Part shown: piece after piece, positions 2,892-5,611 of the stretch
Layout: every line of letters starts with the position of its first letter
Position numbering within the stretch: position 1 is the first letter of the stretch
Assembly (NCBI GenBank): GCA_019096195.1
Contig: JAGTXK010000243.1
Coordinates: forward strand, 248,001-312,000
DNA: 64,000 bases
Source of the DNA: Boletus sp. NGJ
Taxonomy: Eukaryota > Basidiomycota > Agaricomycetes > Boletales > Boletaceae
Reading direction: 5' to 3'
Made by a program: the position numbers and the translations under genes
The notes under the pieces: generated by a model
What the model saw: only the letters and a program-made list of their open reading frames with translations
What the model was told of the DNA's origin: nothing
Database searches by the model: none

Positions 2892-5611
2892 ATGACGCGT
2901 ACACCTCTACAAACTGATCTCATCGATCCACCGGACCTCACCGACACGTTTCAGCAGTATCAGAAACGGATTATTGGACATGGTTCCTTCGGCATCGTGT
3001 ATCATTGCTATGGTACACGGCACGGGGAGGTTAGCATGTTCGCACTCACTTTGCTCAAGGGTTTACCTACGTTTCCTGTGTTCAGGTCGCGGTCAAGGCT
3101 ATAACCTTCCCTCTTGACCTCGACCATAAAGAACAGGATGTGGTCATGCGAGTGAGTTGGCACCTTTCTGCCGTACGTCTTCGCTGATCTCTGTTGTTGC
3201 CCTAGAAATTGAGACGCGAGCTTGCAATATGGAAAAAATTAGACCATCCCAACATTGTTCCGCTCCTGGGCACGACACACGGCGATGACTTCGGATCTGA
3301 TCATCCCTGCATGGTTTCGATGTGGATGCCACATGGAACGCTCCTTGAGTATGTCAAGCAACGTGGAACTATGCTTTCGCTTCCTAGTCGTGTCCAACTT
3401 GTGAGTGCAAAGACATTTTGTAACGCTCACCCAGTTTACAACTGGCCGACCAATGTCAGATCAAAGAATCAGCTGCCGGACTAGAATACCGTACGTTTAC
3501 GGGCTCTGGTTGTTGTGGCTCTCATATGACATCCTTCTGTAGTACATTCGAATGGCCTCGTTCATGGTGATTTCCACCCCGTGGGTTGTATCACCTGATT
3601 GTGACATCGATCCGCCTGGTTTATCATTTCTGTAGGGCAATATTTTGATTGACGGCAAACACAATGCCCGCCTTACCGACCTTGGGTTTTCGCAAACTTT
3701 CAGCCCAGAGCAGGATCAACTGTTTTACCTCTGGATTGATGCCATTCGTCCCGGCGCAGTGATGTGGGCCGCACCTGAGCTGGTCTATCCAGACCTGTGT
3801 CCGGATCACGAGAATGGGGTCACGCTTAACAGCAACATTTACTCCCTCGGTAGCATCGCCCTCTTTGTATGTTAATATTCGATTTCTGTCCTCAACTCCT
3901 GAATTGGACATACAGATCCTTTCGGGGAACTTTCCATGGCAAAATAGAGCAGACGCCGAAAATAAATTAAGGGAATTCCAGAATCCGCCACGCCCAGCGT
4001 GGCCTGTTTATATTCCGGACGGTGTTTGGAATTTCCTTGAGCGATGTTGGTCTCCAAAACTGCCGAGAAATCGTCCATCGGCCCAGGAAGTATTGTTGTT
4101 CTCCAGAGACAAACTAGAGCAGCTGTTACAGCCCAGGTGTGTTACTATCATAATATGCTTGCCAACTCCTGATTCTTGAATGAAGTTCTGCATCTGATAT
4201 CAATGTCGTGCTATTCGGTGCTCTCGGGTGCGGGAAGAGCTCGGTCATCAATCTTCTTGCCGAGGAACCAGTCGCACACGTATCCGCAGACGTGGAGCCT
4301 TGCACCAAGCAACCACAATGGTACCAGATATCCATTGGTGAAAGGCGGTTCCGGTTATGGGACACGATGGGGTTCTCCCTTGCCCACCGGGGAGACACCA
4401 GTCATCTTTTACCTTACGAACAAGCACATGCTGTCTTGCGAAACCTCCCTAATGGCGTTAACCTTATTCTCCTCTGCGCACGCAAGGACCGAATCTTCAC
4501 CTCGCTTGGTAGTCTCTACCGGTTGATCAACGGTTTCTTTTATGGCGGTCGTGCCCCAATAGCCTTCGTCGTTACCCACCCCGATAAGCCTGATGAACGG
4601 TGGTGGGAACGCAATCAAGACATCATCACTCGAAAAACTGGTATCCCAGTTCAGTCTACTCCACATATATGCGTTTCCACGGCTCAGACTGGCTGTGATC
4701 AGTCAAAACAAATGCTGAAAGAACTCTTGCAAACGTATGCCACCGCTATCACCCCGATTTCCCTTTCGTCTCATACGATGGCCTCTGTAAACCTTGCTAC
4801 CCGCTGTGGATTGAGCCGTCCCGAAGCTACAACACTTGTTGAAAAGTTCAGCAGGCCACCGCGCCCTTTCAATATCGTCTTTTTTGGAGAAGCAGGGGTT
4901 GGAAAGAGTTCGGTCATCAATCTCATTGCTGGGCATCCCATAGCCAAAGTTGTTTCAGGACCAGACGTCTGTACATTGGAACCATGTGCATATAGGATCA
5001 GCACAGGGATGCAGCAATTCCGGATCTGGGACACTGTAGGTTTCGGCTCAGCACCCACGAGGCACGATATCCCTGACAATCGAGCTGCAATGAATGCATC
5101 CAAGCTGGTTCGTTCCCTGTCTCGAGGGGACGATATTGACCTGATCGTCTTCATCAAGATACGTGGTCGGGTCACCTCCTCGGAACTCAATTGCTACAGG
5201 TTATTCGAGGAGGTCCTTTGCGGCGGCAAAGTTCCAACTGCGCTCATTGTCACCCACCTTGAATCATACAACCCGATGGAGGAATGGTGGGAAGTGAACG
5301 GGGATGACCTCGTTAAGTCCATGAGTGGGATTGTGATCGGTCATGCATGCATCACGTCGCTGGCGAGCCACGATCCAGGCGGCATGGAATTAGACAGGAA
5401 ACTGTTGGAATCTAGACTCTCTGTTCAAGCCATGCTCGAGGAGTGCGTCTCTTCTCGCAGTGCACGTGCGTGGGTGGAAGGTATCTCGGCCAAACTGTCC
5501 CTGAAGTCGCCTGGGAGATGGGTGATGCACAAGAGGAAGATGACCGTCGAGGACCTTAGGGATTGTTATCAGTTGACCAGGGAGCAGGCCGAGGAACTCC
5601 TTGGTTTGTAG
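2892..5611 (+). CDS. Protein kinase fused to two tandem P-loop GTPase domains (copy A)
   Basis: Eight exons (2892-3029, 3086-3151, 3206-3400, 3460-3490, 3543-3580, 3636-3866, 3916-4136, 4186-5611) joined by GT-AG introns of 49-59 bp give one open frame of 781 codons. Residues ~1-300 form a TKL-like protein kinase: glycine loop GHGSFGIV (29-36), VAVK lysine (50), catalytic loop HGDFHPGNIL (151-160), DLG in place of DFG (171-173), and APE (202-204). Residues ~310-530 form a first GTPase domain: GALGCGKS (318-325), WDTMGF (365-370), THPD (437-440). Residues ~535-750 form a second: GEAGVGKS (541-548), WDTVGF, VVTHLE. Each GTPase domain is followed by a short related motif (CGLSRPEA; QLTREQAEELL). 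No signal peptide or membrane segment is seen. Likely intracellular signalling with GTP-dependent control; substrate unknown. The start is the first ATG, in the same place as in copy C. Convergent with copy B, 164 bp away. Confidence 0.82.

Follow-up and report, generated by a model that had tools for sequence, protein, structure and literature searches.

Does the locus at 2892–5611 encode one protein that carries a kinase and two GTP-binding (G) domains, or do two neighbouring genes merely appear joined? The window, i.e. the whole stretch of 64 000 nucleotides analysed here, covers positions 248001–312000 of contig JAGTXK010000243.1 of Boletus sp. NGJ (assembly GCA_019096195.1; 32.8 Mb, 141 contigs). 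A preliminary description of this DNA proposed a protein kinase spliced in frame to two tandem P-loop GTPases, and the 781-residue open frame that it drew is borne out exactly: gene A (2892–5611, + strand) consists of eight exons in a single frame with a single terminal stop, separated by seven GT-AG introns (49, 49, 52, 54, 55, 56 and 59 bp). Judged from its sequence and that of its relatives, gene A almost certainly encodes one protein.

Exon 1 (2891–3029) holds the glycine loop GHGSFG (2976–2993) of the kinase. Exon 2 (3086–3151) supplies the VAVK lysine, exon 3 (3206–3400) the αC glutamate in RREL, exon 5 (3543–3580) the catalytic motif HGD, which is of the non-RD type (3563–3571), and exon 6 (3636–3866) DLG (3678–3686) and APE; exon 4 (3460–3490) also belongs to the kinase, and exon 7 (3916–4136) contains its end and exits in phase 2. 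Behind the junction intron (4137–4185, 49 bp, GTGTGT...GAATGAAG, phase 2), exon 8 (4186–5611, stop at 5609–5611) encodes two G domains of predicted GIMAP/Toc34-like type. The first (G1) has the P-loop GALGCGKSS (4217–4243), DTMG (4361–4372) and a helical tail (4799–4849, TRCGLSRPEATTLVEKF), the second (G2) the P-loop GEAGVGKSS (4886–4912), DTVG (5030–5041) and a helical tail resembling that of G1 (5561–5608, DCYQLTREQAEELLGL); the two G domains are separated by ∼ 40 residues, and ∼ 45 more follow G2. The kinase motifs (GHGSFG, VAVK, RREL, HGD..N, DLG and APE) and both P-loops are present, as the preliminary description had it.

Two more intact copies lie on the − strand of the window: copy B (5776–8576; 9 exons, 791 residues), whose G2 P-loop reads GQTGAGMSS with the Walker-A Lys changed to Met, and copy C (21494–24293; 9 exons, 789 residues). 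A, B and C are open throughout. The start of gene A is uncertain, since the ATG at 2892 that had been taken as its beginning sits within exon 1. Both B (8576–8563) and C (24293–24283) have an upstream mini-exon followed by a phase-2 intron of 49–50 bp, and the equivalent in A (exon 0, 2818–2840) is a possible true start, MSHNVEQ-, which is in frame via a 50-bp phase-2 intron (2841–2890) and gives eight introns and 789 residues. Among 16 kinase–GTPase alignments outside the window (spliced aligner, queries A and B), the mini-exon intron was placed in seven, five of which start M-x-S; in the remaining nine the local alignment starts downstream of the mini-exon. This exon probably belongs to gene A, so that the seven introns originally counted are all present but the true number is probably eight.

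Whether kinase and GTPases form one gene turns on the junction intron. The whole genome was searched and 18 loci were taken, each modelled with a spliced aligner; only alignments starting before query residue 60 and extending beyond residue 380 entered the junction count. (A PF00069 profile search of the genome scored 127 of 299 candidates and omitted the window's own kinase; it was not used for counts.) A phase-2 junction intron at the identical residue position was found in 16 of the 20 kinase–GTPase alignments, A, B and C included, with a length of 49 bp in 13 cases, 51 bp in two and 54 bp in one. The exceptions are L002 and L014, with a phase-1 junction intron of 60 or 70 bp, L012, a pseudogene (10 frameshifts), and one of the degenerate copies in the window, which has no junction intron. 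Such recurrence bears out the claim that the junction is no accident of annotation. The three window copies were also said to share one junction sequence; they agree in phase and position, but T-TCT-GCA-TCT-GAT is found in A and C only, B having T-CCT-ACA-TCT-GAT.

A kinase gene next to a double-GTPase gene would fit with the existence of kinase-free double-GTPase proteins in Boletales (P0022, P0033, P0041) and in the same genome (L007). Five public proteins of this kind even start 3–5 residues upstream of the equivalent of the exon-8 start, while the other six examined show a larger offset or start 2 residues later. However, the gap between the two parts of gene A is only 49 bp, and the frame is kept by a conserved phase-2 GT-AG intron. 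In the 16 alignments with this intron the last exon reaches its P-loop 11 codons in and has no Met ahead of it; a gene of its own beginning in this exon would thus have no P-loop. If the junction is left unspliced, a stop is met within at most 20 codons. Independent public gene models also join both parts. The conserved junction leads us to reject separate genes, which we regard as extremely unlikely.

The public models with the same join, apart from small splice-point differences, come from Butyriboletus (P0001, P0005, P0008), Lanmaoa (P0002) and Imleria (P0003, P0004, P0006, P0014, P0024), so that the architecture, which the preliminary description suggested seeking in other fungi, is present in other Boletaceae. 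P0003, P0004 and P0006 are without the kinase N-lobe, P0001 reads through one kinase intron, and in P0012 (Boletus coccyginus) the join is present with the kinase reduced to its end. The relatives in Lanmaoa and Imleria are 57–66% identical, L004 matches P0008 of Butyriboletus roseoflavus at 100% over 528 residues, and L003 matches P0001 at 96%, which makes the source B. roseoflavus or a species very close to it. For copy A itself the best of the listed public proteins reaches 70% identity and none reaches 90%, although that species is represented by other proteins; there A is absent or unannotated. P0009, a metagenome-type match in which the junction intron is read unspliced, gives no evidence for the join.

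The domain search proposed in the preliminary description placed PF00069, PF07714 and MMR_HSR1 above their Pfam cut-offs in gene A. Its kinase scores 131.9 bits against PF00069 (cut-off 31.7) and 117.1 bits against PF07714 (cut-off 23.1), and keeps the Lys, the Glu, the catalytic Asp and the Asp of the DFG position, with the motifs written HGD and DLG. Its best matches (JAK, EGFR, MAP3K2, IRAK4, Fes, RAF; HER2, Fes, CTR1, JAK) make it a putative tyrosine-kinase-like kinase. Membership of FunK1 (PF17667, cut-off 24.1) was rejected: this family is absent from the best 25 of the 36 Pfam families that match A, the lowest of which score ∼ 12–13 bits. MMR_HSR1 (PF01926) matches two stretches of gene A with 75.6 bits (cut-off 21.9), and the presence of P-loop and DxxG places the domains in the TRAFAC class. 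Scores against AIG1 (PF04548, cut-off 27) are 22.2 bits for A, 32.5 for B, 29.6 for P0003, 22.9 for P0002 and 24.8 for P0001; A is thus below and B above the AIG1 cut-off, and MMR_HSR1 fits A better. For a predicted model of the full-length protein (pTM 0.68, domain placement not interpreted) the listed structure matches are all kinases; exon 8 was therefore folded and searched apart, and its predicted fold is GIMAP/Toc34-like. Of 56 G1 domains examined, 46 retain the P-loop Lys; in nine, mostly from truncated proteins, the pattern matched no P-loop, and the remaining one carries Gln instead.

Gene A is one of eight kinase–GTPase copies (A, B, C and L001–L005) on a single 409-kb contig. Across 21 pairs of seven copies with the full kinase–G–G order, dN/dS (Nei–Gojobori) is 0.21–0.45 in kinase, G1 and G2 alike, and purifying selection acts on all three domains. 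Together with the conserved junction and the public gene models, this selection upholds the single protein. Divergence is uneven along the genes. Synonymous divergence between A and B is 0.53 in the kinase, 0.27 in G1 and 1.13 in G2. In 100-base bins, A and C are 98–100% identical over 4001–4500 and 79–97% in the remaining bins of 2901–5500, and A and B are 92–99% identical over 4501–4700, with 86% before and 69% after. The two tracts (A–C at 4001–4500, A–B at 4501–4700) are likely to reflect gene conversion.

The origin of the fusion was approached with a tree of G domains (62 rows; 25 of 87 G domains omitted as near-duplicates; root not inferred by the method). Two clades unite, respectively, the G1 domains of A's lineage (99/95, 20 rows) and its G2 domains (98/97, 12 rows); nested in the former is a clade (100/87, 15 rows) of the kinase-fused G1 domains. 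Beside these lie the G1 domains of kinase-free double-GTPase proteins from Melanogaster (P0041), Chiua (P0033) and Pisolithus (P0050, P0051) and of L007; the second G domain of P0050 and P0051 falls outside the G2 clade. Because the kinase-fused clade nests beside these kinase-free relatives, parsimony makes it most likely that the tandem GTPase predates the kinase fusion. The alternative would be loss of the kinase in the kinase-free proteins. Six kinase introns are common in phase and position to the kinase-only loci L017 and L018 (in L018 two are shifted, by 1 and 4 residues), and the double-GTPase part of L007 is intronless, with one apparent frameshift and no Met close upstream of the equivalent of the exon-8 start. 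The simplest account would be that a kinase rich in introns acquired a double-GTPase reading frame without introns, which became its final exon. The domain order stops at G1 in six copies (L004, L008, L009, both at L010, and L013), none of which has a convincing G2 trace downstream, and at L011 two of three copies have G2-like traces nearby.

Related kinases also stand before G domains of other lineages, at L002 and in P0121, at L014, and in Suillus/Rhizopogon (P0052, P0124, P0126); Suillus P0133 and P0139 likewise have a related kinase, and the G domains of both are without a firm position in the trees. Architecture defined the groups for the approximately unbiased (AU) test, although an initial tree had by then been inspected. 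The test rejects a common clade of every first G domain that follows a kinase (p = 1.1e-10), a clade of L002/P0121 with L014 (p = 2.7e-6), a clade of G1 with L002/P0121 (p = 5.5e-31), and a single clade for the five Suillus/Rhizopogon G domains (p = 0.019). L002 and L014 have sister kinases in a quick tree. This rejection suggests that fusions of related kinases with further G lineages took place elsewhere in Boletales. Architectures were counted in 230 listed public proteins plus the genome's own loci, out of 663 and 948 matches. Kinases of this kind are fused to HET in P0199 (Chiua virens) and to WD40 in P0186 (Boletus edulis); P0124 and P0126 (from Rhizopogon and Suillus) have two kinases and then one G domain, and Serendipita P0072 (also P0135) has the reverse order, G domain then kinase. 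L015 and L016 are open frames with three tandem G domains, with relatives in Boletus edulis (P0053) and Chiua (P0140).

What might such a protein do? Nucleotide-dependent pairing has been proposed for GIMAPs, septins and Toc34. The protein consists of an N-terminal non-RD (HGD for HRD) and putatively tyrosine-kinase-like kinase followed by two G domains of predicted GIMAP/Toc34 fold, each with a short helical CxL tail at its end. In the model that we favour, the G domains would pair in a nucleotide-dependent manner, with G1 pairing and G2 assisting or tuning. Pairing of G1 would unite two kinase domains, which could then phosphorylate each other and, subsequently, downstream targets; GTP hydrolysis would reset the switch. 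We prefer this model because of the predicted GIMAP/Toc34-like fold and because nucleotide-dependent dimerization is the model proposed for Roco/ROC GTPases (PMC4104024). We put the chances that G-domain pairing gates the kinase at about even. The earlier suggestion that GTP binding controls the kinase is a reasonable idea, although the term 'receptor-like' attached to it finds no sequence support, a sensor domain being absent from the best 25 of 36 Pfam matches of A.

Several observations weigh against a nucleotide-gated kinase. Four of the seven kinase–G–G copies are interrupted once (by a frameshift in L001, L003 and L006, by a stop in L005). The Asp position of αF is Asn in A and C, and in L010(−), a copy with kinase and G domain, the VAVK Lys, the αC Glu and the catalytic Asp are all lost, so that its kinase is likely to be a pseudokinase. 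On the GTPase side, the top five Foldseek matches of exon 8 by E-value are chains of EngA/Der-type tandem GTPases or ribosome-assembly proteins, before GIMAP, and the G4 motifs (THPD, THLE, TDLD) differ from the classical NKxD, so that guanine specificity is putative. Four of 56 second G domains (copy B, P0002, P0011 and P0046) have Met for the Walker-A Lys. Lastly, disrupting nucleotide binding in DAPK1, which also has its kinase at the N-terminus, did not reduce kinase activity (PMC4104024). The altered G2 P-loops of B and of P0002 from Lanmaoa, together with the six copies that end after G1, indicate that GTP binding by G2 is not essential; from the altered P-loops and the DAPK1 result we consider it likely that G2 is regulatory and G1 the main switch.

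The interruptions could mean that some members of the family are in decay, or they may be assembly errors; in P0001, the public counterpart of L003, the last exon is annotated as unbroken, though the model is labelled partial. A duplicated family in decay and currently without function would account for them, as well as for two degenerate copies in the window (a kinase–GTPase copy at ∼ 9000–10080, + strand, and a kinase-only copy at ∼ 16200–17260, − strand) and for the 10 frameshifts of L012. We think this very unlikely in view of the low dN/dS of all three domains, the preservation of Lanmaoa and Imleria relatives, and the three intact kinase–G–G copies, which are those in the window.

It is also conceivable that the kinase signals alone and that the G domains anchor or scaffold it (at a membrane, on a filament or by protein docking) and do not act as a nucleotide switch. 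The Met-bearing G2 domains and the DAPK1 experiment would be expected if this were so, whereas the retention of the P-loop Lys in most G1 domains and purifying selection on G1 would not, and we rate this explanation as rather doubtful. Finally, the protein could be an intruder sensor in which the fused kinase guards the G domains, these being substrates or else decoys that mimic host GTPases under attack. For kinases in ascomycete NLRs an integrated-decoy role has been put forward (PMC12258605), and the placing of related kinases before different G lineages, or their fusion to HET or WD40 in other boletes, would be in keeping with the idea; no mimicked host GTPase was identified, however, and we hold this to be quite unlikely.

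With the paired-G-domain model in mind, we tentatively consider a role in immunity or incompatibility, i.e. self/non-self recognition or a response to intruders. The clusters, the decay, the gene conversion and a nearby HET gene, at a distance of 1.8 kb to copy C and 12.5 kb to A, point in this direction, and we see the role as possible, if somewhat less than probable. We further speculate that boletes repeatedly fused a non-RD, tyrosine-kinase-like kinase to GIMAP-like GTPases and amplified the products as fast-turnover, self-contained intracellular switches, convergent with Roco and GIMAP proteins and used in non-self or symbiont recognition, with one G domain as the engine and the other free to decay to a regulator; as a whole this scenario is unlikely. 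Recognition by kinases in mushrooms gains a concrete candidate in this family. Few proteins combine a GTPase with a kinase, and such proteins are of medical importance (LRRK2); the natural variants found here, some with a single G domain, some with two and some with a changed P-loop in G2, offer comparisons for how a GTPase may gate a kinase.

Roco proteins (LRRK1/2, DAPK1) likewise combine a GTPase and a protein kinase in one chain, and membership requires Roc plus COR. Unlike them, the bolete protein has GIMAP/Toc34-like G domains and no COR among the best 25 of 36 Pfam matches of A, and its Roc score is 20.9 bits (below the cut-off of 27); membership was rejected. Roco genes are reported to be lacking in fungi (PMC4104024). 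Compared with GIMAP/AIG1 proteins, a family of immunity-associated GTPases, the bolete protein adds the fused kinase and the helical CxL tail. A snail (Biomphalaria) study mentions in passing an AIG1 protein whose N-terminus is a protein kinase, and notes the combination from salmon or fungi as well (PMC7053062); the remark in the preliminary description that no family of kinase–GTPase–GTPase order is known is thus correct in part. The bolete proteins share with these the N-terminal kinase and AIG1-type GTPase and differ in forming a multi-copy family with two tandem G lineages and a conserved junction intron. A description of a kinase–G–G family was not found in the literature searched, most subscription papers being outside its reach; nor did the available parts of a kinome survey (PMC2838846) and of papers on NLRs and immunity (PMC4986451, PMC9815663, PMC10197012, PMC12881547) yield a kinase–GTPase fusion. 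So far as we found, the kinase–G–G family with its conserved junction appears to be undescribed.

Like fungal NLRs, among whose domains protein kinase is listed (PMC4986451), the family is paralog-rich and nucleotide-binding. We rejected membership, since no NACHT, NB-ARC or repeat sensor is among the best 25 of 36 Pfam matches of A; nSTAND1 scores 17.3 bits (cut-off 27.1). A study of Sordariales NLRs set aside an orthogroup overlapping MMR_HSR1, RsgA, Septin, AIG1 and Dynamin_N (PMC12258605). In bacterial conflict systems AIG-type GTPases and, separately, kinases occur, and no fungal case was noted in the part of that paper available (PMC7159879). EngA/Der resembles exon 8 in its two consecutive G domains; sequence matches are weak (E 0.0097 and up), and of the five Foldseek matches with the best E-values three are chains called YphC or Der.

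No RNA genes were found in the window. Clear single G-domain open reading frames (ORFs) lie at 259–1453 (+ strand) and 14108–15594 (− strand), each followed by a second stretch; that of 259–1453 has no match to the G-domain model, and 14111–15298 has no Pfam match. The ORF at 10910–11365 (− strand) has a weak G-domain trace only. HET-domain genes at 18158–19735 and 50026–51783 (− strand) are alike by eye, the first being the one 1.8 kb from copy C. Between 31382 and 39633, ORFs of a Gypsy-type retroelement (RNase H and integrase, ∼ 33–38.8 kb) are flanked by two pieces of a Tc1-like transposase (HTH_Tnp_Tc3_2 at 31382–31954, DDE_3 at 39073–39630), which suggests a nested insertion.
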